Part shown: one piece after another, positions 10,261-27,226 of the stretch | Position numbering within the stretch: the first letter of the stretch is position 1 | Layout: each line of letters starts with the position of its first letter | DNA from: a virus | Length of the DNA stretch: 38,761 nucleotides | Virus record (IMG/VR): IMGVR_UViG_3300031673_000204 | Span: 1-38,761 of that record | Direction: 5' to 3' (one strand) | Made by a program: the position numbers and the translations under genes | Notes under the pieces: model-generated | Seen by the model: the letters and a program-made list of their open reading frames with translations, nothing else | What the model was told of the DNA's origin: nothing | Database searches by the model: none

Positions 10261-11310
10261 ATGAGTGTAGCATCTTTCTTACAAACAATCTGGGCAAGTA
10301 TGACGCCAACGGCATACAAGAATGCCATTGATGCAAACTTTGCTGTCGCCAAACGTAGCATAGACAATTTTGCACCGAATCAGCAAGTGACGCCTAACAT
10401 GACAGTCTTGCTCGATGCTGGGCACACTTATGATGGCACAACGCTGACTGAGGTTGCTGCACAAAGCACCGCAACCATTGCTACCCCAGCAACAGGCTAC
10501 ATGCGCATAGATCGTGTTGTGATAAATAGTGCAGGGGTGAATTCTGTGATAACAGGAACTCCTGTAACATCTGCCCCTGTTGCTCCAGCAATAACTGGAG
10601 GGGCATTCCCAGTGTGTCAAGTCTTATTGGATGCGACCAGCACGCCAGTAACTGCAATTGTCAATTCAATGATAACAGATGAGCGAGTGCTGGCTGTTGG
10701 GTATGCTACGAATGCTACGAATGCTACGAATGCTACGAATGCTATGAATGCTACGAATGCTACGAATGCCTTATCAAATTCAGCACCGCTGTATGCCAAA
10801 AAGTGGATAGGTCGCACCAGCGCAGCAGATAACTATTGGACCTCCATAGCTTGGAATGGAACGGTGTTTGCCGCAGTAGCAGGTAGTGGAACAGGAAATA
10901 GGGTAATGACAAGTCCGGATGGGATCACCTGGACAATCCGCACCAGCGCAGCAGATAATAATTGGACCTCCATAGCTTGGAATGGAACGGTGTTTGCCGC
11001 AGTAGCAAACACCGGAACAGGAAATAGGGTAATGACAAGTCCGGATGGGATCACCTGGACAATCCGCACCAGCGCAGCAGATAATGGTTGGACCTCCATA
11101 GCTTGGAATGGAACGGTGTTTGCCGCAGTAGCAGCTACCGGAACAGGAAATATGGTAATGACAAGTCCGGATGGGATCACCTGGACAATCCGCACCAGCG
11201 CAGCAGATAACTATTGGACCTCCATAGCTTGGAATGGAACGGTGTTTGCCGCAGTAGCAGGTAGTGGAACAGGAAATAGGGTAATGACCACACCAGAGTA
11301 TGCCGGATAA
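10261..11310 (+). CDS. Tail fibre / receptor-binding protein with tandem repeats
   Basis: A 349-aa protein directly after the tip gene. Residues 1-145 match phage fibre N-terminal domains (TGYMRIDRVVINSAGV and MITDERV are characteristic). Residues about 149-170 are a run of Ala-Thr-Asn triplets. The rest is four 42-residue repeats, each with SIAWNGTVFAAVA and an Asp-box-like SPDGITW, as in BNR or beta-propeller-type repeats that bind sugars. The last copy is truncated and ends TTPEYAG. Repeats differ only at a few loop codons, suggesting recent duplication with diversification of the binding surface. Ligand unknown. Confidence 0.82.
   Translation: MSVASFLQTIWASMTPTAYKNAIDANFAVAKRSIDNFAPNQQVTPNMTVLLDAGHTYDGTTLTEVAAQSTATIATPATGYMRIDRVVINSAGVNSVITGTPVTSAPVAPAITGGAFPVCQVLLDATSTPVTAIVNSMITDERVLAVGYATNATNATNATNAMNATNATNALSNSAPLYAKKWIGRTSAADNYWTSIAWNGTVFAAVAGSGTGNRVMTSPDGITWTIRTSAADNNWTSIAWNGTVFAAVANTGTGNRVMTSPDGITWTIRTSAADNGWTSIAWNGTVFAAVAATGTGNMVMTSPDGITWTIRTSAADNYWTSIAWNGTVFAAVAGSGTGNRVMTTPEYAG
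10705..10767 (+). repeat. Seven tandem 9-bp units (GCTACGAAT) in fibre gene
   Basis: Seven in-frame units of GCTACGAAT encode Ala-Thr-Asn; the fifth unit reads GCTATGAAT (Met for Thr). The unit length is a multiple of three, so slippage changes the length of the linker between the fibre N-terminal domain and its repeat head without breaking the frame. Confidence 0.95.
10813..11289 (+). repeat. Four tandem 126-bp repeats in fibre gene
   Basis: Units start at 10813, 10939, 11065 and 11191, exactly 126 bp (42 codons) apart; the fourth diverges after about 99 bp. Copies 1 and 4 are identical over their shared length. Differences among copies fall at three places only: codons 7-8 (Asn-Tyr, Asn-Asn, Asn-Gly), a dipeptide after AAVA (Gly-Ser, Asn-Thr, Ala-Thr) and one Arg/Met codon. 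The remaining bases are identical. Confidence 0.97.
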
Positions 11311-17274: not shown

Positions 17275-18771
17275 ATGAATCTAGCTGAAGAATTCTTCAA
17301 GCTATTTACTGGGTTGATGCGCGCACATGGCACATATGTGGTGTCAGGCGTCAAGGATAATAAAGGCAAGATGGGCGGCAAGGCAATTACACTTCAACAT
17401 GAAGTGACAGTTGACCTTTGGGCAAAACACCTCAACGGTAAAGCAGGGGTTGGAATAATCCCGATTGATGATGATGCGAATGTACATTGGGCAGCAATTG
17501 ATGTTGATGTATATCCGATAGACCATATTGCGCTTGGCGAGAAGATAACCAAGTTGAAGCTGCCATTGGTGCACTGTAAGAGCAAGAGTGATGGTGCACA
17601 TCTTTATGTATTCTTCAAAGAGCCAGTAACAGCAAAGTTGGCAAGATCAAAATGTATGGAATGGGTTATTGCCTTGGGTTATGCAGGGCTGGAAATATTC
17701 CCGAAGCAAATCAAGTTGGCAAATAAAAGTGATACAGGAAACTGGATCAACATGCCATACTATGATGCAGAGAAAACAGAACGGTTTGCAATTTACAAGG
17801 GCAAGAAATTATCTGCCCAAAAGTTTATTGAGTATGCTCACAAGATGGCACTCAGCTTAACAGAGCTTGAGAACTTTGAAGTTCAGATAAGTGATGGCGC
17901 TTTCAGTGATGGGCCGCCCTGCCTCCAAGCATTAGCAGCATCAGGCTTCCCGCAGGGCACCCGCAACATGGGCCTATTCAATATGGGTGTATATGCCCGA
18001 AGCAAATTTGGGGATACGTGGAAAGAAGTCCTTGAGGAATACAACCGTGACTTTATATCGCCGCCACTAGGGGTGACAGAAGTGTCACAGGCAATCCGGT
18101 CATTGAGCCGCAAGACTTACTTCTACACCTGCGACAAGCAGCCAATTGTACAGTGTTGTAATAAAGAGATATGCAAGAAGCGCACATTTGGGGTTGGCAG
18201 TGGCGGTGAGGATATTCCAGTCACCATTGGCAAGCTGGTTCGTATTAACAGCGAAGTTCCTACATTCTTCATTGATGTGGAAGGGGTGAGGATGGAGGTG
18301 GAACCAACCCAGTTGCTGCTACAAGATCGTTTCAGGCTTCTGTGCATTGAGAAGATCAGCAAACTGCCAACGCGCATGAAGCAACCAGAGTGGGAAGCAA
18401 TTGTGCGTGATCGGCTAGAGAATCAAGAGGTGATTGAAGCGCCACGTGATGCTGGGCCAAAGGGTCAATTCTTTCTACACCTTGAGGTGTTTCTCACAGG
18501 TAGGCATAAGGCCAAGGCCATTGATGAGTTGCTGCTTGGCAAACCATTCCCAAATGAGAAGGATGGACGCACCTACTTTCGCTCAATTGACTTGATGAAG
18601 TATCTTGACCAAGTTCACTTCAGGGATTTCAAGCCGCGTCAAATCTGGGCAATGATTGGTGACATGGGTGGACGGCACGAGCAATTCAATATCAAGGGCA
18701 AGTGCGTACAAGCGTGGAGTATTCCAAGCCCATCCGAGCAAACTGAAGAATTTGAAGAAGGGAAATTTTAA
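17275..18771 (+). CDS. Archaeo-eukaryotic-type primase, TOTE-like
   Basis: A 498-aa protein. Residues 70-180 carry AEP primase signatures: HWAAIDVDVYP with metal-binding Asp76 and Asp78, CKSKSDGAHLYVFF with His109, then GLEIFPKQ and GNWINMPYYD. This combination is that of the primase domain described in TOTE conflict systems and related phage proteins. The C-terminal region (about 230-498) looks like a helical accessory part with a Cys-containing stretch (CDKQPIVQCCNKEICKKR). It should make primers for the phage DnaE-type polymerase. Its last residues, EEFEEGKF, are shared with the repeat peptides downstream. Confidence 0.85.
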   Translation: MNLAEEFFKLFTGLMRAHGTYVVSGVKDNKGKMGGKAITLQHEVTVDLWAKHLNGKAGVGIIPIDDDANVHWAAIDVDVYPIDHIALGEKITKLKLPLVHCKSKSDGAHLYVFFKEPVTAKLARSKCMEWVIALGYAGLEIFPKQIKLANKSDTGNWINMPYYDAEKTERFAIYKGKKLSAQKFIEYAHKMALSLTELENFEVQISDGAFSDGPPCLQALAASGFPQGTRNMGLFNMGVYARSKFGDTWKEVLEEYNRDFISPPLGVTEVSQAIRSLSRKTYFYTCDKQPIVQCCNKEICKKRTFGVGSGGEDIPVTIGKLVRINSEVPTFFIDVEGVRMEVEPTQLLLQDRFRLLCIEKISKLPTRMKQPEWEAIVRDRLENQEVIEAPRDAGPKGQFFLHLEVFLTGRHKAKAIDELLLGKPFPNEKDGRTYFRSIDLMKYLDQVHFRDFKPRQIWAMIGDMGGRHEQFNIKGKCVQAWSIPSPSEQTEEFEEGKF

Positions 18772-18773
18772 TT

Positions 18774-19394
18774 ATGAATGTTCTAGTTGCTTGTGAATTT
18801 TCAGGCATTGTGCGTAATGCATTTGCAAAAAAAGGTCATAACGCATGGAGCTGTGACTTGTTGCCAACTGAAATGCCAGGGAATCATTATCACGGAAATA
18901 TTGATGATATTCTTTTCGAAAATTGGGATTTGCTCATTGCTCATCCACCTTGCCAATTTTTATCAAACAGCGGAGCAAAACATCTATACATTGATGGGAA
19001 ATTATCAAATGGGAAATATTTACCGCGTTGGAGAGATTTGCGAAATGGTGCGCAATTCTTTAAAAAGTTCGCAAAAGCAAAACACATTCCATTGCGATGT
19101 ATTGAAAATCCAATAATGCACAAGCATGCTAAACAGTTGATCCAATTACAACAGTCTCAAATTGTTCAACCATACATGTTTGGTCACCTTGAAACTAAGG
19201 CAACTTGTTTATGGTTATGGAATTTGCCGCTATTATCCCCAACCAATGATGTAAAGGGTGAAATGATGAAATTGCCATATAACATTCGTGCACGCTGTCA
19301 TATGATGTTGCCATCACCAACACGCTCAATGGATAGGAGTAGAACATTTTTGGGGATTGCTGATGCAATGGCAGAGCAATGGGGTTCATTATGA
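18774..19394 (+). CDS. DNA cytosine-5 methyltransferase-like protein
   Basis: A 206-aa compact protein. VLVACEFSGIVRNAF (residues 3-17) resembles the SAM-binding motif I, CDLLP motif II, and AHPPCQFLSNSG holds the PPC motif with catalytic Cys60; CIENP (109-113) matches motif VI. The length is half that of typical C5 methyltransferases, and no distinct target-recognition domain is visible; short versions are common in phages. It could protect phage DNA from restriction. Visibly AT-rich codon use and the flanking repeat sequence suggest it is an inserted cassette. Confidence 0.78.
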   Translation: MNVLVACEFSGIVRNAFAKKGHNAWSCDLLPTEMPGNHYHGNIDDILFENWDLLIAHPPCQFLSNSGAKHLYIDGKLSNGKYLPRWRDLRNGAQFFKKFAKAKHIPLRCIENPIMHKHAKQLIQLQQSQIVQPYMFGHLETKATCLWLWNLPLLSPTNDVKGEMMKLPYNIRARCHMMLPSPTRSMDRSRTFLGIADAMAEQWGSL

Positions 19395-19489
19395 CAATTC
19401 AAAAACTAATACTTGGCCCACCTGGATGCGGCAAGACAACTTGTTGTATCCAGATCACAGAAGAGGAATTTGAAGAAGGGAAGTTCTGA
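19391..19489 (+). CDS. 32-aa P-loop mini-ORF, repeat copy R1
   Basis: ATG at 19391 overlaps the methyltransferase stop (ATGA), and its own TGA (19487-19489) overlaps the next ATG. The peptide MTIQKLILGPPGCGKTT continues CCIQITEEEFEEGKF. It aligns with the first 30 residues of the UvrD-like helicase at 20843, including a full Walker A, and then stops. Bases 19400-19492 are identical to 20008-20100. It is too short to be an ATPase. It may be a relic, a coupling leader, or part of a recombination module; its GAAGAAGGG supplies the RBS for the following gene. Confidence 0.7.
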   Translation: MTIQKLILGPPGCGKTTCCIQITEEEFEEGKF

Positions 19490-19492
19490 TGA
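19400..19492 (+). repeat. 93-bp direct repeat, copy 1 (identical to 20008-20100)
   Basis: Exact copy of 20008-20100, offset 608 bp. It joins a sequence like the 5' end of the UvrD helicase gene to a 3' end like that of the primase gene; the shared 17-bp core GAATTTGAAGAAGGGAA also occurs at 18748-18764. Confidence 0.97.
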
Positions 19493-19695
19493 AAAATAAA
19501 ATAATAATTGCCACTGCTCAAGTCAATGTTGAAGAGGCAAGAAGATTAAACATTGAGGTGATGGAGATAATAAGAGTGCCAAAAAGAACTAGTGTGAAGA
19601 TGTTGCTAGAACTTCTGAATGGCGCAGCATACGGAATTTATTTTTACAAATATAGTGTAGTGGATAGAATGCCAAAGAAAAGGAGAATGACATGA
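19489..19695 (+). CDS. Small hypothetical protein in repeat-bounded cassette
   Basis: A 68-aa basic protein (MKNKIIIATAQVNVEEARRL, ending MPKKRRMT) with ATG inside the repeat's TGATGA. Its RBS (GAAGAAGGG) is provided by repeat R1. It overlaps the following gene by 4 bp. AT-rich; no recognisable domain. Confidence 0.7.
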   Translation: MKNKIIIATAQVNVEEARRLNIEVMEIIRVPKRTSVKMLLELLNGAAYGIYFYKYSVVDRMPKKRRMT

Positions 19696-20006
19696 GCGAG
19701 AAAGAATATGACCCTGATTTCCCAGAGTGGGCAACTTGCAAAAGTTCGGGCAACTACATGGAGGTTGGCGCACAACTTTGCACTCGGAATGGGCGCAAAG
19801 TTGGCAATGCGGTTGTCATTTCCATAACAACCCAAAATGGGTTAGCAACAGCAGAGTGTATCACTGATTCTGGCAATTCCTTGATACTCACAATTACTGA
19901 GCTTGAAGAGTTATTCCATGAGCCAAGATTCTTGATGGATATTTCAAGTCACATTGGAGTTGACAAATTTTACCACAACAATATTGCTGGGAGCCAATAT
20001 GAGTAG
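19692..20006 (+). CDS. Hypothetical protein in repeat-bounded cassette
   Basis: A 104-aa protein beginning MSEKEYDPDFPEWATCKSSG, with beta-rich middle (GNAVVISITTQNGLATAE) and helical end. AAAGGAG precedes the ATG. The stop lies 8 bp inside mini-ORF R2. The C-terminal residues GSQYE overlap the start of that repeat, so the gene end was probably shaped by insertion. Function unknown. Confidence 0.72.
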   Translation: MSEKEYDPDFPEWATCKSSGNYMEVGAQLCTRNGRKVGNAVVISITTQNGLATAECITDSGNSLILTITELEELFHEPRFLMDISSHIGVDKFYHNNIAGSQYE

Positions 20007-20097
20007 CCAAAAACTAATACTTGGCCCACCTGGATGCGGCAAGACAACTTGTTGTATCCAGATCACAGAAGAGGAATTTGAAGAAGGGAAGTTCTGA
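19999..20097 (+). CDS. 32-aa P-loop mini-ORF, repeat copy R2
   Basis: The second copy encodes MSSQKLILGPPGCGKTT and then the same 15 residues as R1 before TGA at 20095-20097, which overlaps the ATG of the adenine methyltransferase. Only the first few codons differ from R1. Identity over 93 bp without a single change implies recent duplication, gene conversion or strong constraint. Confidence 0.7.
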   Translation: MSSQKLILGPPGCGKTTCCIQITEEEFEEGKF

Positions 20098-20100
20098 TGA
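20008..20100 (+). repeat. 93-bp direct repeat, copy 2
   Basis: Identical to 19400-19492. Together with the primase 3' end (18748-18773) and helicase 5' end (20843-20892) it bounds three inserted gene blocks: 18774-19390, 19489-20006 and 20097-20842. Confidence 0.97.
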
Positions 20101-20846
20101 TTAAATTATTGCAAGGTGATTGCTTGAAACTTATGGCCAAGTTGGCAGCCCAGTCTGTGGATATGATTCTGTGTGACTTGCCATATGGCACAACAGTCAA
20201 TAAGTGGGACACAATTATTCCATTTGAGCCTCTGTGGGAGCAATACAAAAGAATCATCAAACCAAATGGGGCAATTGTGTTGTTTGGGGCACAGCCATTC
20301 ACAAGTGCATTGGTTATGAGCAACCCTAAGATGTTCAAGTATGTATGGGTGTGGCGCAAAAACTCAGGGAGCGGCTTTGCAACGGCAAAGTATCAGCCAA
20401 TGCGCTATCACGAGGACGTGCTTATATTCTGCGAGGGGCGAACTATTTACAATCCTCAAAAAACGGAACGGAATAGTGAGGCAAGTAAAAAGGCGTGTCG
20501 TAAACCGATACGTTCTGGGGCGGGCAAAAGCGAACATGTAACCGGCCTTAAGTCAGGAGGGTACACCCTCTACGATAGCGAAACAAAAACACCTGAGTCT
20601 GTACTCGATTTTGCCTCTGTACCTAACGGTGGGGGCGGTAAATTTCACCCCACCCAAAAACCCGTAGCCCTGTGCGAGTACCTTATCCGCACATACACCA
20701 ACGAAGGCGATGTTGTGTTGGACAACACAATGGGCAGCGGCACAACTGGTGTGGCCTGTAAAATTCTCAAGCGTTCATTCATTGGCATGGAACTTGATGC
20801 AGAATATTTCAAGATTGCAAGCAAACGCATAAAGGATACAAAATGA
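20097..20846 (+). CDS. DNA N6-adenine/N4-cytosine methyltransferase, beta class
   Basis: A 249-aa protein. Motif IV DLPYGTT (Asp27-Tyr30) precedes motif I DNTMGSGTTG (residues 209-218), the order of beta-class amino-methyltransferases; SVLDFASVPNGGG and HPTQKPVALCEYLIRTY complete the fold. DLPY suggests adenine methylation, but cytosine-N4 cannot be excluded. No restriction partner is nearby, so it is an orphan, perhaps anti-restriction. Codon use changes between about 20440 and 20710 (more CGT, GGG, GTA, ACC) compared with both ends, suggesting a mosaic segment. Confidence 0.92.
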   Translation: MIKLLQGDCLKLMAKLAAQSVDMILCDLPYGTTVNKWDTIIPFEPLWEQYKRIIKPNGAIVLFGAQPFTSALVMSNPKMFKYVWVWRKNSGSGFATAKYQPMRYHEDVLIFCEGRTIYNPQKTERNSEASKKACRKPIRSGAGKSEHVTGLKSGGYTLYDSETKTPESVLDFASVPNGGGGKFHPTQKPVALCEYLIRTYTNEGDVVLDNTMGSGTTGVACKILKRSFIGMELDAEYFKIASKRIKDTK

Positions 20847-22327
20847 CAACTCAAAAATTGATACTTGGTCCACCTGGATGCGGCAAGACAACCTTCTGCA
20901 TCTCCACAGTTGAGAAAGAGTTTGCTGATGGGGTCAGGCCTGATAACTTACTCTATACAACATTCACCCGCAAGGGTGCAAACGAGGCTATCATGCGTGC
21001 TTGTGAGAAGTTCCATTTCAAGCGCACGCAGCTTCCATACTTTAGGACAATTCACAGTCTGGTATTTCAAGAGATGGGTATGAGCCGCGAGGATGTGATG
21101 CAATTCCGCGATTATAAAAAGATTGGAGAGGCGCTTGGCATCCAATTTGGATATACAGACCTGTCTGAAGGGATGGTGGCACCAACGTCAAATGTTGGTG
21201 ATCAAATGCTGTACACACTCGGGTTGGCAAGAGCCAAACTGATAACTGAAGAGGAGCAGTTCCATGAACTTGATTTTGATTTTTCGTGGTTTGAATTTAA
21301 GCGGTTTTTGGATACGCTTAATTCATACAAAGAGCAGAAAAGCCTTTTGGACTTTAATGATATGCTTGATAGATATATTGCTGAAGGCAAGCCGCTGGAT
21401 ATTGAAGTTGCAATCATCGATGAAGCTCAAGACCTAAGCAAGAGTCAATGGAAGGTAATTGAGATTGCCACAGCCAATGCCAATCGCAAGTACATAGCTG
21501 GTGATGATGATCAGGCAATTTTCAAATGGTCTGGGGCTGATGTTGATACATTCCTGAACCTGACTGGAGATAAGAAGGTGCTGGGCAAATCATATCGGCT
21601 GCCAAGTGTGATCCATTCCTATGCAAATAAAATATCTGCACGCATTGATCACCGCTATGAAAAGGAATGGGAACCAAATGCGGAAGGCGGGACAATAGAT
21701 TTTGTTACCAATGTTGGTGAAATTGAAATCCGCGAAGGAACAAACCTATTGCTTGCACGCAATAAATATCTTCTCAAAAAATATGAGGAGTATTTGCGCA
21801 GCGAAGGGTATCCATATACAACGCAGTCAGCAAATAGCATTGACCAAAGCGCAGTGATAGCAGTCAAGGCGTGGGAGGCTTTGCGCGCTGGCAAGAAGGT
21901 TGATGTTGGCTCTATCCGAGCAGCATACCAATATCTGAAGGTTGGATCAGGCGTTGCCCGAGGATTTAAGGCATTACGTGGCGCCACAGGTGAGCTGACC
22001 ATGAAGGAGCTGAAGAAAGATTGGGGGCTGCTCACTGATGCGATTTGGCATGACGCGCTTGTGGAGATGGATGATGCTGAATACTATCTGGTTGCGTTGC
22101 GGCGTGGAGAGAAGTTAGACAAAGAACCGCGCATCCACATAAGCACTATTCACACAGTGAAAGGCGGTGAGGCAGATCACGTGACTATTATCAGTGATGT
22201 GTCATGGAAGGTATTTCACAACATGGGCGATGATGAGCACCGAGTATTTTATGTAGCAGCAACAAGGGCGCGCAAGACCTTGCAAATTGTCCTGCCACAG
22301 ACCGCTTCTGCATATGATTTTCCGTGA
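20843..22327 (+). CDS. UvrD/Rep-like superfamily 1 DNA helicase
   Basis: A 494-aa helicase with all core motifs: Walker A GPPGCGKTT (residues 9-17), FTRKGANEAI (Ia), IDEAQDLS with Asp193-Glu194 (II), GDDDQAIFKWSGAD (III), SYRLPSVIHSYA (IV), ISTIHTVKGGEADHV (V) and VFYVAATRARKTL (VI). It is shorter than bacterial UvrD (about 720 aa), lacking much of the 1B/2B domains, as in several phage helicases. Likely a 3'-5' motor in replication or recombination. The ATG overlaps the methyltransferase stop. Its first 50 bp are copied in repeats R1 and R2 with 4 differences. Confidence 0.93.
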   Translation: MTTQKLILGPPGCGKTTFCISTVEKEFADGVRPDNLLYTTFTRKGANEAIMRACEKFHFKRTQLPYFRTIHSLVFQEMGMSREDVMQFRDYKKIGEALGIQFGYTDLSEGMVAPTSNVGDQMLYTLGLARAKLITEEEQFHELDFDFSWFEFKRFLDTLNSYKEQKSLLDFNDMLDRYIAEGKPLDIEVAIIDEAQDLSKSQWKVIEIATANANRKYIAGDDDQAIFKWSGADVDTFLNLTGDKKVLGKSYRLPSVIHSYANKISARIDHRYEKEWEPNAEGGTIDFVTNVGEIEIREGTNLLLARNKYLLKKYEEYLRSEGYPYTTQSANSIDQSAVIAVKAWEALRAGKKVDVGSIRAAYQYLKVGSGVARGFKALRGATGELTMKELKKDWGLLTDAIWHDALVEMDDAEYYLVALRRGEKLDKEPRIHISTIHTVKGGEADHVTIISDVSWKVFHNMGDDEHRVFYVAATRARKTLQIVLPQTASAYDFP

Positions 22328-22715: not shown

Positions 22716-22775
22716 GTTGTATCTTCAGCATAGGCTAGAGTCAAGTCTGAGGATACAACAGGAGCAATCCTGCTC
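22716..22775 (+). promoter_or_regulatory. Two-hairpin leader, copy 1
   Basis: Stem P1 pairs GTTGTATCTTCAG (22716-22728) with CTGAGGATACAAC (22747-22759), 13 bp including one G-T pair. Stem P2 is GAGCA-ATCC-TGCTC at 22762-22775. An AAGGAG RBS and ATG 22792 follow. Six related elements occur downstream. Confidence 0.8.
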
Positions 22776-22791
22776 AATGAAGGAGAATGAA

Positions 22792-23007
22792 ATGAAAAAC
22801 ACAAATGATGGAATAACAAAGACTACAGAATATGAAGTTGGCGATGAAATAAAATTTTACCAGATCGGCGCAAAGTTGAAAGGCACCATCCAAAAGATTC
22901 ACAAAGATGGGATGCTGGATGTTTTGTGTATGGCTTGGCATGTTATTGATGGTGATGTCCTTGAAGTTCATTTTGAAGATGTCATCACTGCACCATACGG
23001 CAAATAA
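22792..23007 (+). CDS. Small beta-rich protein, unknown function
   Basis: A 71-aa protein (MKNTNDGITKTTEYEVGDEI then KFYQIGAKLKGTIQKIHKDG). The pattern resembles an SH3-like or KOW-like barrel, but this is only a guess. ATG 22792 is preceded by AAGGAGAATGA and the two-hairpin leader; an ATG at 22777 is in frame but lies before the RBS. Confidence 0.75.
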   Translation: MKNTNDGITKTTEYEVGDEIKFYQIGAKLKGTIQKIHKDGMLDVLCMAWHVIDGDVLEVHFEDVITAPYGK

Positions 23008-23018
23008 GATTCCACGAC

Positions 23019-23056
23019 ATGCCCTGTGACAGAGGGCATTGCGGGCAATCTTGCCC
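23019..23056 (+). promoter_or_regulatory. Two-hairpin leader, copy 2
   Basis: P1: ATGCCCT (23019-23025), loop GTGACAG, AGGGCAT (23033-23039). P2: GGGCA (23043-23047), loop ATCT, TGCCC (23052-23056). Followed by AACTTTAGAATGGAGA and ATG 23083. Its P1 is almost identical to that of copy 5. Confidence 0.8.
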
Positions 23057-23082
23057 ACTTAACTTTAGAATGGAGAATCATC

Positions 23083-23346
23083 ATGAAAAACGCAAATCAA
23101 ACCGTAGCAATTGCAACTCCGAAATTCAAAGCAGTTGAACAGCCAATGGCAGAAAAGGCCATCAACTTCTTGCTGGAGCTTCGCAAGAAAGCGGTGAAGG
23201 AACAAATCTGCGCAACGCATGCAGTCAATGCGTTGCTTGATAAGTACCCAGACATGAGCCGCCCAGTTGTTTACAAGGCTGCTCCATATGCAGGCATCAA
23301 TCAACTCACTGCCCGCAACGTCTGGGATGCCCGCAATCATGGTTAA
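23083..23346 (+). CDS. Hypothetical small protein
   Basis: An 87-aa protein beginning MKNANQTVAIATPKFKAVEQ, helical with basic stretches (FLLELRKKAVKEQ). The C-terminal part (SRPVVYKAAPYAGINQLTAR) resembles a small DNA-binding helix region but is not diagnostic. Leader copy 2 and a GGAGA RBS precede it; it overlaps the next gene by 8 bp. Confidence 0.75.
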   Translation: MKNANQTVAIATPKFKAVEQPMAEKAINFLLELRKKAVKEQICATHAVNALLDKYPDMSRPVVYKAAPYAGINQLTARNVWDARNHG

Positions 23347-24013
23347 CCATATTGCGTTTATACGTGATGGTGGCCATACGTGCATCGCCTATGAGGTGAC
23401 AGCCAAGAGGGTTTTGGCTGTGGCGATGGACTCACCAGAATTGACCCTGATCAACGTGGGCACCGAAAGGTTCTATGAAGATTGGCGGCCAATAGAAGGA
23501 TACAGTGCCCAGAAGGCAGCAGACCGCTATCTGATGGGCATGATTCCTATTCCTAGCAACATTCAATATATATTGGAGGCAATCAAAATGAATCAAGAAG
23601 TTGATGCAGCAAAAGCAAAAGCAGTTCCAGCGGCACCCGCCGCACCCGAAAAGGCCAAAGGAAAGGCAACCAAGCCCGAAGCCAAACCTGCAAAGGCACC
23701 AGCAGCTGCAACGGCCAAGTCCAAGACTCCGGCAAAGCCTGCAAAGGCAACTGCGAAGGCTGCAGCGGCACCAGCTGGGAAGAAGTCCAAGATCACATCC
23801 GACACAACTATCAAGTTGCTGAAGGGTGCTGAGGGCAAGACCTTCCAAGAAGGTTCGGTGCGCGGTCAGGTTTTTGCCAAGATCAAGGATGGCCAGTCCA
23901 TCAAGGAATTGGTGAAGGCCTGTGCCAAGTTCGCGGATGAAAAGCAGGTCATTGCCTGTGTCGGCAAGTTGGCTGATGTGAATCAGAAACTGCCAACAAT
24001 CGCCTTGAAGTAA
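23339..24013 (+). CDS. Histone-H1-like Lys/Ala/Pro-rich protein
   Basis: A 224-aa protein in three parts: an N-terminal domain (residues 1-80, VNHIAFIRDGGHTCIAYEVT), a low-complexity linker (about 90-155) of Ala-Lys-Pro repeats (AKAPAAATAKSKTPAKPAK), and a C-terminal helical domain (ITSDTTIKLLKGAEGKTFQE onward). The linker resembles bacterial histone-H1-like proteins that bind DNA non-specifically. ATG 23339 is taken because it overlaps the upstream gene; ATG 23327 is possible. A strong TGGAGG before the internal ATG 23588 may also produce a 141-aa form lacking the first domain. Confidence 0.8.
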   Translation: MVNHIAFIRDGGHTCIAYEVTAKRVLAVAMDSPELTLINVGTERFYEDWRPIEGYSAQKAADRYLMGMIPIPSNIQYILEAIKMNQEVDAAKAKAVPAAPAAPEKAKGKATKPEAKPAKAPAAATAKSKTPAKPAKATAKAAAAPAGKKSKITSDTTIKLLKGAEGKTFQEGSVRGQVFAKIKDGQSIKELVKACAKFADEKQVIACVGKLADVNQKLPTIALK

Positions 24014-24025
24014 GGGGTGCGCAAC

Positions 24026-24066
24026 CTGCCTCTGAGCAATCGGGGGCAGTGTGAGCAATCCTGCTC
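24026..24066 (+). promoter_or_regulatory. Two-hairpin leader, copy 3
   Basis: P1: CTGCCT (24026-24031) with GGGCAG (24044-24049), 6 bp with one G-T pair. P2: GAGCA-ATCC-TGCTC at 24053-24066. GAATGGAGA and ATG 24086 follow. Confidence 0.75.
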
Positions 24067-24085
24067 AACAGAATGGAGATATATC

Positions 24086-24166
24086 ATGAGTGACCTTTGG
24101 TGGATGCTTTATGACTTTGGTGCAGCCGCGCTGCTCACTGTGGCATTTATGATGGGCAACAACTAA
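24086..24166 (+). CDS. 26-aa membrane micropeptide
   Basis: ATG 24086 follows a GGAGA RBS and a complete two-hairpin leader. The product is MSDLWWMLYDFGAAALLTVA followed by FMMGNN, essentially one transmembrane helix. Presence of the full leader and RBS, shared with its neighbours, argues that it is a real gene. Role unknown. Confidence 0.7.
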   Translation: MSDLWWMLYDFGAAALLTVAFMMGNN

Positions 24167-24179
24167 CAGGATTTCACCG

Positions 24180-24227
24180 GATGGTACTTAGGGAATTTGC
24201 TAGGTGCCATCAAGAGCAATCCTGCTC
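24180..24227 (+). promoter_or_regulatory. Two-hairpin leader, copy 4
   Basis: P1: GATGGTACTTAG (24180-24191) with CTAGGTGCCATC (24200-24211), 12 bp including two G-T pairs, loop GGAATTTG. P2: GAGCA-ATCC-TGCTC at 24214-24227. AGAATGGAGAG and ATG 24248 follow. Confidence 0.82.
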
Positions 24228-24247
24228 AACTAGAATGGAGAGATATC

Positions 24248-24478
24248 ATGAGCAATATGTCATACTGTAGATTTCAAAACACAGCAAATGATTTAGCAGA
24301 CTGTGCTGAACATTTGTTCGACAAAAGGGTTGATGGCGAGGAGGCGCGTGCGCGCCTTCGCATTTTAGAGATAGCAATTAATATGCTTAGTGACTTGGGC
24401 ATTGATGTTGACCTTGGTGATGCTAGTCTGGTAGATTGCATCAATGAGAGTATGTCTGATGTGCCAGATGAGGTGTGA
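24248..24478 (+). CDS. MSYCRFQNT-type phage protein, unknown function
   Basis: A 76-aa acidic protein beginning MSNMSYCRFQNTANDLADCA. The N-terminal motif is one I recognise from small phage and bacterial proteins of unknown function. The rest is helical (EEARARLRILEIAINML) with an acidic tail. It follows leader copy 4 and overlaps nothing; the next ATG begins one base after its stop. Confidence 0.82.
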   Translation: MSNMSYCRFQNTANDLADCAEHLFDKRVDGEEARARLRILEIAINMLSDLGIDVDLGDASLVDCINESMSDVPDEV

Positions 24479-24479
24479 C

Positions 24480-24785
24480 ATGGCCAACCACACTATCAGC
24501 ATCAAGCATGGCGTGGAAGGCCCAAAGCATGATCCATGGGCATACACAGACTACACCTTCACCAAGGGCAATCAGTACATGACGCTGCATCGTGGCCTTG
24601 GCACGCGCCTCACCTCAACCTATTATGATTCAGTTTGGGCGGATGGTGCTGTAGTCACCGAGGGTGAGTTGGTGAAAAAGTTTGAGGAGTGGGTTGGGAT
24701 GGACATTGACCGATTTGAGAAAGTCCATGACCGTTTGCACCCGCACTTCGATGACCTGATGGGCAACCCATCAGACTTTATATAA
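24480..24785 (+). CDS. Hypothetical protein
   Basis: A 101-aa protein, MANHTISIKHGVEGPKHDPW, with many His and aromatic residues and an acidic, helical C-terminal half (GELVKKFEEWVGMDIDRFEK). ATG 24480 is chosen over the upstream in-frame reading because GAGGTG lies just before it and it abuts the previous stop. No recognised domain. Confidence 0.75.
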   Translation: MANHTISIKHGVEGPKHDPWAYTDYTFTKGNQYMTLHRGLGTRLTSTYYDSVWADGAVVTEGELVKKFEEWVGMDIDRFEKVHDRLHPHFDDLMGNPSDFI

Positions 24786-24796
24786 AGGAGAATAGC

Positions 24797-25033
24797 ATGA
24801 GAAAAGAAAAAAGACACGATGATGTTGAGCGCACTCATATGAATCACATCATAATCACACGGCCATCAGGGCCAAAGAGCAGGGCGCACCCTCACAGTGA
24901 AAATCGTGACATTTATCTGGCCACATCGCGCCCTATCAATCAAGAGCACATCAATGAAATTGCGGCGCACGTGCGGCATGTAGAAGCCACACACACTGCT
25001 CCAAAGCCCAAGTTCAACTATTGGTCAAGGTAG
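24797..25033 (+). CDS. Small His-rich basic protein
   Basis: A 78-aa hydrophilic protein with AAAGGAG before the ATG. It is rich in His, Arg and Lys (RKEKRHDDVERTHMNHIIIT). No motif that identifies a metal site or function. It ends the first leader-bearing gene group before the longer spacer at 25034. Confidence 0.7.
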   Translation: MRKEKRHDDVERTHMNHIIITRPSGPKSRAHPHSENRDIYLATSRPINQEHINEIAAHVRHVEATHTAPKPKFNYWSR

Positions 25034-25039
25034 CACGAC

Positions 25040-25077
25040 ATGCCCTGTGACAGAGGGCATTGCGGGCAATCCTGTAC
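25040..25077 (+). promoter_or_regulatory. Two-hairpin leader, copy 5 (degenerate)
   Basis: P1: ATGCCCT (25040-25046), loop GTGACAG, AGGGCAT (25054-25060). P2 has GGGCA-ATCC (25064-25072) but the 3' arm is TGTAC instead of TGCCC, so pairing is broken. No gene follows directly, which fits relaxed constraint. Confidence 0.65.
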
Positions 25078-25178
25078 CACTTACAAAAGGATTGTTGTAG
25101 TCGGGCATAGCGCCCATTTTATCTGGCAAAGCCGCACTGGCCGAATGATGCGGACATTTTATTAGTTAGGAGAATATC

Positions 25179-25187
25179 ATGCGATAG
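25179..25187 (+). other. Two-codon ORF (ATG CGA TAG) with strong RBS
   Basis: TTAGGAGAATATC places a consensus RBS before ATG CGA TAG. It could be a remnant start of a deleted gene, or a regulatory minigene like the lambda bar AUG-AUA-stop sequences that sequester tRNA. No expression evidence. Confidence 0.4.
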
Positions 25188-25206
25188 CAGCTAAGAACTG
25201 CACCTC

Positions 25207-25251
25207 ATGCCCTTTCGGAATATTGAGAGGGCATCTGGGGCAATCCTGCCC
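25207..25251 (+). promoter_or_regulatory. Two-hairpin leader, copy 6
   Basis: P1: ATGCCCT (25207-25213) with AGGGCAT (25228-25234), 14-nt loop. P2: GGGCA-ATCC-TGCCC at 25238-25251. AACTTTAGGAGAATGAA and ATG 25273 follow. Confidence 0.8.
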
Positions 25252-25272
25252 AATTAACTTTAGGAGAATGAA

Positions 25273-25770
25273 ATGATAACCACCACACTAAACAGAATAC
25301 GCACCTGTCACCCCTGCGAATCAGGTTGGACAAAATTGCTCAAGCATCTTGGCAAGACTACCGCTGATGATGAACCTTTGCCATTTTCGGTAATCCTTGA
25401 ATCTAACGGACTGGATGACGCTTTATGGTGCTGCCGTGCCGCTCCTGAATATGACCGTGAATGGAGATTGTTCGCGGTCTGGTGTGCCCGTCAGGTACAG
25501 CATTTAATGACCGATCAGCGCAGCATTGACGCGCTGGATGTAGCGGAACGCTTCGCTAATGGATTGGCGACTACTCAAGAATTGGATGCTGCGGGGGCTG
25601 CTGCGTGGGCTGCTGCGTGGGATGCTGCGAGGGCTGCTGCGGGGGCTGCTGCGAGGGCTGCTGCGGGGGCTGCTGCGTGGGCTGCTGCGTGGGATGCTGC
25701 GAGGGCTGCTGCGTGGGATGCTGCGAGGGCTGCTCAAAAGGTAAAATTTTTACAAATTGTTAATTCATAG
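25273..25770 (+). CDS. Alanine-rich tetrapeptide-repeat protein
   Basis: A 165-aa protein. The first 100 residues form a domain (HPCESGWTKLLKHLGKTTAD, GLDDALWCCRAAPEYDREWR) that I recognise from phage and proteobacterial proteins of unknown function. Residues 105-154 are tetrads of the form (Asp/Ala)-Ala-Ala-(Trp/Arg/Gly), probably one long helix. The end is QKVKFLQIVNS. It follows leader copy 6. The repeat tract is much more GC-rich than its surroundings and can change length without a frameshift. Confidence 0.82.
   Translation: MITTTLNRIRTCHPCESGWTKLLKHLGKTTADDEPLPFSVILESNGLDDALWCCRAAPEYDREWRLFAVWCARQVQHLMTDQRSIDALDVAERFANGLATTQELDAAGAAAWAAAWDAARAAAGAAARAAAGAAAWAAAWDAARAAAWDAARAAQKVKFLQIVNS
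25585..25734 (+). repeat. 12-bp tandem repeats (GMTGCTGCGNGG)
   Basis: Twelve complete in-frame units of the pattern GCTGCTGCG(T/A/G)GG or GATGCTGCGNGG, followed by GCTGCT. Units fall into longer blocks, for example two copies of the order W-W-R, which suggests duplication of multi-unit segments. Confidence 0.95.
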
Positions 25771-25779
25771 GAGAATATG

Positions 25780-26622
25780 ATGGAACTTATTTTGAGTGAT
25801 GATCAGCTGATGGATGTTGCTCCGAGCATCTTTGCCTCTGAGCCATGGGGTGAGGTGAGTGACCGCTATACATTCATCCCAACCATTGGGGTTGTGAATG
25901 CATTGCGCAATGAGGGATTCTTCCCTGTGAAGGCTTCTCAATCGCGCACTCGCATTGACGGCAAGGGAATGTTCACCAAGCACATGTTGCGCTTCAGGCG
26001 TGAGCAGGACTTAAACATGCCACGTGTTGTGGAAGGTAATGCGCACCACTTCTACAAGATACCACCCGAGATACCTGAGTTGGTGCTTGTCAATTCGCAT
26101 GATCGCAGTTCTGGGTATCAACTGAATGGCGGCATCTGGCGCAAGATTTGCTCCAATGGCCTGATGGTGCAATCTTCTTACATGGGCAGCATCAGCGTGA
26201 GGCACAGCGGCAATATTGCTGATGAGGTCATTGAGGGTTCATACAGCATCATAAAGGAGATGCCAAAAATACTCAGCAAGATTGATAGCCTCAAGGCAAT
26301 AATCCTAGACCCAAAGCAGCAGGAGATATATGCCAATGCTGCGCTTGAGTTACGCTATCCGAAGGATGATGCCGGCAACAATCGCTCACCCATCAAGGCG
26401 CCACAGCTACTGGCAGCAAGGCGCGATGCCGACAAGGCACCAGACCTGTGGACCACCTTCAATCGTGTTCAGGAAAATTTCATGAAGGGCGGCTTGAAGG
26501 GGATAGCAACAACAGGCCGCAGGACACGCACAAGGAAGATTGGCAGCGTGAATGAAGACTTGCGGTTGAATAAGGCGCTGTGGACTCTCACAGAGCAGAT
26601 GGAAGAGTACATGTCCAAGTAA
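25780..26622 (+). CDS. DUF932-family phage protein
   Basis: A 280-aa protein. YTFIPTIGVVNALRNEGFFP and RIDGKGMFTKHMLRFRRE (residues about 29-75), ELVLVNSHDRSSGYQLNGGI and ICSNGLMVQSSY fit the DUF932 (plasmid/phage-like, TIGR03299-related) family. The family is widespread on mobile elements; a role in anti-defence or replication is suspected but unproven. ATG 25780 has AGGAG at 6 nt; ATG 25777 is adjacent and in frame. It follows the alanine-repeat gene by 9 bp. Confidence 0.85.
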   Translation: MELILSDDQLMDVAPSIFASEPWGEVSDRYTFIPTIGVVNALRNEGFFPVKASQSRTRIDGKGMFTKHMLRFRREQDLNMPRVVEGNAHHFYKIPPEIPELVLVNSHDRSSGYQLNGGIWRKICSNGLMVQSSYMGSISVRHSGNIADEVIEGSYSIIKEMPKILSKIDSLKAIILDPKQQEIYANAALELRYPKDDAGNNRSPIKAPQLLAARRDADKAPDLWTTFNRVQENFMKGGLKGIATTGRRTRTRKIGSVNEDLRLNKALWTLTEQMEEYMSK

Positions 26623-26633
26623 GATCGCACCCC

Positions 26634-26671
26634 ATGCCTCGTGACAGGAGGCATCCAGGGCAATCCTGCTC
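26634..26671 (+). promoter_or_regulatory. Two-hairpin leader, copy 7
   Basis: P1: ATGCCTC (26634-26640), loop GTGACAG, GAGGCAT (26648-26654). P2: GGGCA (26658-26662), ATCC, TGCTC (26667-26671), with one G-T pair. TAGGAGAATATC and ATG 26687 follow. P1 shows compensatory changes relative to copies 2, 5 and 6. Confidence 0.82.
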
Positions 26672-26686
26672 AACTAGGAGAATATC

Positions 26687-27226
26687 ATGAATGTGATTGA
26701 GAAAGTGGTGCTGTTCATTATCCTAATACTCGCAGCAATGTTCTGTGAGCAAGTGCACGCTGATAACTTCTTTGTGGTATCAGTTCATGCTTATCACTGG
26801 AACCGTAATGATGCTCATGGCACCCCAGCAACAAAGCCTGTGTGCCTCATCAACCGGCAACAATATATAGAGTGCAATTGGTCTACTGGTACTCCAAGCC
26901 TCAATGAAAATAATTTTGGCCTTGGATATGAACACACCTCGGGCAATTCTGTATATGGCGCTGGATTTTACAACAACAGCAACTACAAGCTGACAACATA
27001 TCTGTCATATGCCTATATGCCAATTCACTTTGCTGGAATTGCCATTGGCCCAATTGTATCATTGGTGACTGGCTATCCAATTGCACCTATTGCGGTGATG
27101 GGTGGGGCTGAAGTCCGGTATGATGTTGGCAAGTTTGGGCTGAATCTTATGCTTGTGCCAACAGCAACAGTGAACAATGTAAAGGCAACAGGCTTCGCAG
27201 GGCTACAACTAAGATGGAGATTTTGA
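26687..27226 (+). CDS. PagP-like outer-membrane beta-barrel protein
   Basis: A 179-aa secreted protein. A signal peptide (residues 1-25, hydrophobic 7-19, cleavage after VHA) is followed by a barrel-sized domain with alternating aromatic strands and a C-terminal Phe (LQLRWRF), the BAM recognition signature. Order and spacing resemble lipid A palmitoyltransferase PagP: VSVHAYHW (PagP His region), NNFGLGYEH, GAGFYNNSNYK (PagP has Asp-Ser here; this has Asn-Ser), IGPIVSLVTGY and GGAEVRYDVGKFGLNLMLVP. It may modify host lipid A or block superinfection. The active Asp is not conserved, so enzyme activity is uncertain. Confidence 0.72.
   Translation: MNVIEKVVLFIILILAAMFCEQVHADNFFVVSVHAYHWNRNDAHGTPATKPVCLINRQQYIECNWSTGTPSLNENNFGLGYEHTSGNSVYGAGFYNNSNYKLTTYLSYAYMPIHFAGIAIGPIVSLVTGYPIAPIAVMGGAEVRYDVGKFGLNLMLVPTATVNNVKATGFAGLQLRWRF

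Follow-up and report, generated by a model that had tools for sequence, protein, structure and literature searches.

Analysis of the complete 38,761-nt viral stretch, hereafter the window, revealed an array of accessory genes between a primase gene and a helicase gene, where three blocks of cargo are separated by two coding joints that share an identical 93-bp repeat. The array is real and exceeds chance; the best reading is an array of cassettes at an insertion slot that has been used recurrently. Judging from sequence comparison, this slot was probably filled three times, with the joints being recombination joints and the stacking of cassettes resulting from unequal exchange.

All features of the interval lie on the plus strand. 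The upstream gene encodes a primase of the archaeo-eukaryotic type (17275..18771; PF22548, 4e-12; phrog_21866, 3.5e-102), whose tail is native, as it aligns with the tail of the nearest relative, L177. Block 1 is a small DNA methyltransferase of the cytosine-5 (C5) type with a PPC motif (18774..19394; phrog_757, 3.6e-52) and is followed by joint J1 (19391-19489). Block 2 comprises a 68-aa ORF (19489..19695), for which no relative was found and Pfam-type and phrog searches gave no family match, and a 104-aa protein of a phage family of unknown function (19692..20006; phrog_9905, 1.9e-20). After joint J2 (19999-20097), block 3 encodes an N6/N4-type DNA methyltransferase (20097..20846; PF01555, 2.1e-30; phage-like GC content of 46%), and the interval is closed by a UvrD/Rep-like superfamily 1 helicase (20843..22327; PF00580, 1.2e-25; phrog_1967, 2.3e-74). 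The composition of the C5 block (GC 38%) and of the 68-aa ORF (GC 34%) is foreign in comparison with 46%. In the primase family, 48 of 53 distinct tails end in Phe, many of them after acidic residues (EEIPF, DDVPF); such tails resemble the C-terminal tip of bacterial SSB, and the joint peptides end likewise (EEFEEGKF).

An identical repeat of exactly 93 bp at 19400-19492 and 20008-20100, as reported in the initial annotation, was confirmed. Each copy makes up the larger part of a 32-codon ORF, with J1 (translation MTIQKLILGPPGCGKTTCCIQITEEEFEEGKF*) holding the first copy and J2 (MSSQKLIL...) the second. The description of each junction as a translation unit with start and stop overlaps, a ribosome site and TGATG was likewise found to be accurate. 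The ATG of J1 overlaps the stop codon of the C5 methyltransferase, and the TGATG at its end opens the 68-aa ORF; the 104-aa ORF and J2 overlap by 8 nt, and the TGATG of J2 opens the adenine methyltransferase of block 3, the stop of which is overlapped by the ATG of the helicase. At the 3′ end of the joint, AAGAAGG is followed after 9 nt by the TGATG of the next gene. Identity between J1 and J2 starts at codon 4; codons 2-3 differ (ACAATT vs AGTAGC, giving MTI vs MSS), so that J2 does not simply repeat J1 from its start codon.

The first 50 nt of J1 and the helicase start at 20843-20892 are equal at 46 of 50 positions (92%), as had been noted before, and the helicase start is likely a relative of the 5′ part of the joint. 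This likeness runs ungapped beyond Walker A as far as about codon 30, with identity at 21 of 39 nt (p = 0.0016 in codon shuffling), and the family PSSM score of the post-Walker A stretch is matched by 0.16% of the shuffles (p = 0.0016); the pattern E-x-E-[L/F]-x-x-G is common to the joint, the window helicase and L177. Since helicase likeness reaches that far, only the last ~26 nt of the joint are clearly primase-like. The clearly primase-derived part consists of a 17-bp core, GAATTTGAAGAAGGGAA, followed by Lys-Phe-stop-ATG. Within the window, this core occurs at 18748, 19466 and 20074 only, the first copy lying in the last primase codons (18748-18771), which also carry the stretch serving as ribosome site of the gene that follows. 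When primase and joint tails were codon-shuffled, 17-bp sharing was obtained in none of 2000 cases, the longest shared stretch being 12 bp. Primase tail and joints also have the peptide end EEFEEGKF-stop in common. The comparisons thus support a fusion of a helicase-start-like and a primase-end-like sequence; the fusion and the shared primase ending proposed initially hold, with the helicase part extending further than was stated there.

Regarding the source of the joint, joint and window helicase show five differences over the first 17 codons, four of which are silent, and therefore the donor would have been a working helicase, probably that of a relative. The joint end TTCTGATG is closer to the abutting boundary of L177, TTCTAATG, than to the window's own, TTTTAATTATG. 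As the 17-bp core is missing from the window's own helicase gene, the short homology would have to lie in another donor or ancestor. An exact 80-bp search of IMG/VR, from which close records may be held back, retrieved no copy of the joint, a search for close helicases by QKLILGPPGCGKTT gave none, and seven matches to a candidate donor helicase pattern, EF[ED][ED]G after Walker A, were rejected as they were all unrelated proteins. Among 80 other viral loci around C5 methyltransferase genes, flank repeats were found only in L159, where the gene lies behind an HNH-like ORF (L159:4973-5620) with an exact 27-bp ribosome-site repeat on both flanks. A third, similar copy follows the next gene there; the repeat precedes successive genes and is of another kind than the joint.

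The proposal that the blocks are insertions is supported by related phages. Primase and helicase genes are both present in 83 distinct relatives and abut (≤70 bp) in 40 of them, one being L177 (45% identity for the primase and 42% for the helicase), which has the unusual Cys of GPPGCGKTT in common with the window. In the other relatives, the intergenic distance is 71-300 bp (34 relatives) or more (nine relatives); among these nine, L182 has a broken primase frame, as which its 930-bp gap reads and for which it was rejected as cargo, and L086 and L088 have a different gene order. Cargo differs by lineage, comprising a cytosine methyltransferase (L031), a Mom-type gene (L183), a 289-aa protein (L180), HTH genes (L040, L185) and small genes, some of them unknown (L084, L085, L087, L178). 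The best annotated-phage match of the window's C5 methyltransferase is an autographivirus gene that likewise lies directly behind a primase, with an ATGA overlap. From these loci, we infer that the primase-helicase boundary is probably a recurrent cargo slot, used several times for DNA-modification genes.

Comparison of primase-helicase intervals, as suggested initially, hence gave different cargo at the same boundary, but no joints in relatives. Comparing L031 with the empty L014 and L028 (flanks 75-78% identical) revealed a precise insertion from primase stop to helicase start without repeats. Duplicated gene ends were present in none of the 43 relatives with a gap of at least 60 bp and are confined to the window, where the duplicated-end scores are 44 and 19, the highest null values being 13 and 12. 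Short Walker-A frames were found nowhere outside the window in 85 related and 17 genome-derived loci, and no relative found carries the three blocks together, be it with or without repeats, so that the counter-case named initially, the same three genes in relatives lacking repeats, did not arise.

For the origin of the array, we propose that a unit of primase end, boundary and helicase start would have been duplicated via recombination at a short homology that the primase tail (GAATTTGAAGAAGGGAA) shares with codons 25-30 of the helicase. Exchange between two molecules of the type primase end-cargo-helicase start would then give primase end-cargo A-joint-cargo B-helicase, with the first fused joint arising at the shared core. 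Later, unequal homologous recombination via joints and helicase starts could add a further cassette and copy the joint exactly, and each new cassette would inherit the ribosome site and start from the joint, so that the operon stays translatable. Stacking by unequal exchange would account for the identity of the joints, the diversity of the cargo and the maintained coupling. Lambda Red is known to recombine 22%-diverged sequences efficiently (PMC2327257). The order of events and the donors, as given here, are presumptive. Against this explanation count the facts that a comparable joint was found in no relative, the history being read from one contig, that the difference between J1 and J2 in codons 2-3 has no account from a single duplication, that the present window helicase lacks the 17-bp core, and that no recombinase of the window phage was identified.

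Of the initial proposal of a portable module arising by homology-driven capture, the recombination part thus stands, as recombination at short homology explains the joint best, but portability of the 93-bp unit did not gain support, with no copy retrieved by the exact IMG/VR search, no duplicated ends in relatives and a scarless insertion in L031. A more far-reaching and rather improbable reading takes the joint as a portable, self-contained linker of ~100 nt made of coding sequence, which would provide homology to any such primase-helicase pair together with start, stop, ribosome site and RNA stem.

The stem refers to the J1 RNA, in which an uninterrupted 14-bp stem, CUGGAUGCGGCAAG-ACAA-CUUGUUGUAUCCAG, is predicted at 19422-19453. 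A stem of 14 pairs occurs in just 0.1% of synonymous versions and in none of 90 helicase starts of relatives, where the longest has 10 pairs. It may suggest that the joint is kept as a regulatory linker, in which stem-loop, ribosome site and coupled mini-ORF tune the next gene and selection or conversion keeps the copies identical; the intact frame, the overlaps on both sides and AAGAAGG ahead of the ATG agree with such a function. However, the stem was spotted post hoc and is treated as a lead, the total folding energy of the joint is matched by 14% of synonymous versions, and a ribosome translating the joint would melt the stem. Moreover, no promoter or terminator pattern was found in the joint, with no sigma-70-like site in either copy in a scan for this type only. 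We consider such a spacer function unlikely, while noting that it is compatible with the joints having arisen by recombination and does not exclude it. Among the other 96-nt stretches sampled in the window, an uninterrupted stem of at least 14 pairs was found only at 1703-1738 (15 pairs).

As the window derives from a metagenome virus contig and a 93-bp repeat is short enough for assembler crossover between variants, it is conceivable that strain variants with single cassettes were joined via the repeat, without any one molecule carrying all three blocks. Overlap joining, however, cannot create a fusion with differing flanks and first codons at its two copies, and frame overlaps are kept at all of the transitions C5-J1, J1-68-aa ORF, 104-aa ORF-J2 and J2-methyltransferase, so that in the worst case the order or number of blocks would be wrong; an assembly artefact is therefore very unlikely. 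Still less credit is given to a tandem duplication of the helicase, with the joints being decayed 5′ ends of old helicase copies and their likeness to the primase tail being due to chance. While the joint is indeed mostly helicase-like, this is at odds with the core and peptide end held in common with the primase tail, given the outcome of codon shuffling, and with both copies ending at the same point with TGATG; furthermore, no other helicase remnants were found in the primase-helicase interval.

Further repeats are present elsewhere in the window. In at least seven copies at 22745-26690, a GGAGAAT ribosome site and a hairpin unit (ATGCCCTGTGACAGAGGGCAT with GGGCAATCCTGCCC or GAGCAATCCTGCTC) recur in the intergenic stretches ahead of small genes; these units, which have no Rfam match, look like another type of cassette boundary in this phage, one based on stem-loops. 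Tandem repeats of 12 bp (GGCTGCTGCGTG type) lie at 25585-25735 at the 3′ end of ORF 25273-25770, and 9-bp and 126-bp tandem repeats at 10694-11297 within ORF 10261-11310, downstream of a tail gene.

Among known systems, PeSL promoter/stem-loop cassettes of T4-type phages have reportedly been described by Arbiol in 2010 and Comeau in 2014. PeSLs consist of an intergenic early promoter and a stem-loop, are repeated between small accessory genes and allow modular shuffling. The window resembles them in having repeats between accessory genes; a 14-bp stem is present as well, but within the ORF frame, and the joint is coding and without a sigma-70-like promoter site; by its promoter feature, the array is not a T4 PeSL array. 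An integron-type array is not indicated either, as no integrase was found among the window proteins scanned and the joint is coding. Likewise, there is no sign of insertion driven by a homing endonuclease, the cargo having no endonuclease family match and the 68-aa ORF no match at all. The scarless insertions of L031, L183 and L180 use the same slot and in part likewise carry DNA-modification genes, but, unlike the window, are single insertions without duplicated gene ends.

In Cluster O mycobacteriophages, gene 14 of Corndog is a cargo gene flanked by a 17-bp direct repeat that is present once in relatives, and gene 60 of YungJamal is flanked by a 24-bp repeat of coding sequence with mostly synonymous differences (PMC4351075). 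As in these cases, the cargo of the window is missing from relatives, is located at a precise gene boundary and is flanked by a direct boundary repeat that is single in relatives, L177 having one boundary. In contrast to those single insertions with repeats of 14-24 bp, the window contains three blocks and two joints built as ORFs around identical 93-bp repeats. Start-associated repeats between small phage genes (PMC4351075) are similar in that a repeat bearing a ribosome site precedes each gene, but these are short and intergenic (27 bp in L159), whereas the joints are fused gene ends. We conclude that the window belongs with Corndog and YungJamal but extends their kind to an array whose joints are fused gene ends.

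The pile-up of accessory genes at one point is seldom caught in mosaic phage genomes; here, the joints remain in the sequence. They let the steps be read, including the short homology used, the upkeep of translation and the way in which two DNA methyltransferases share one slot. It appears plausible that the joints couple translation in vivo and that the methyltransferases shield the phage genome from restriction. If the joint were indeed a portable linker, modification genes could be stacked and swapped in one slot across the phage population.
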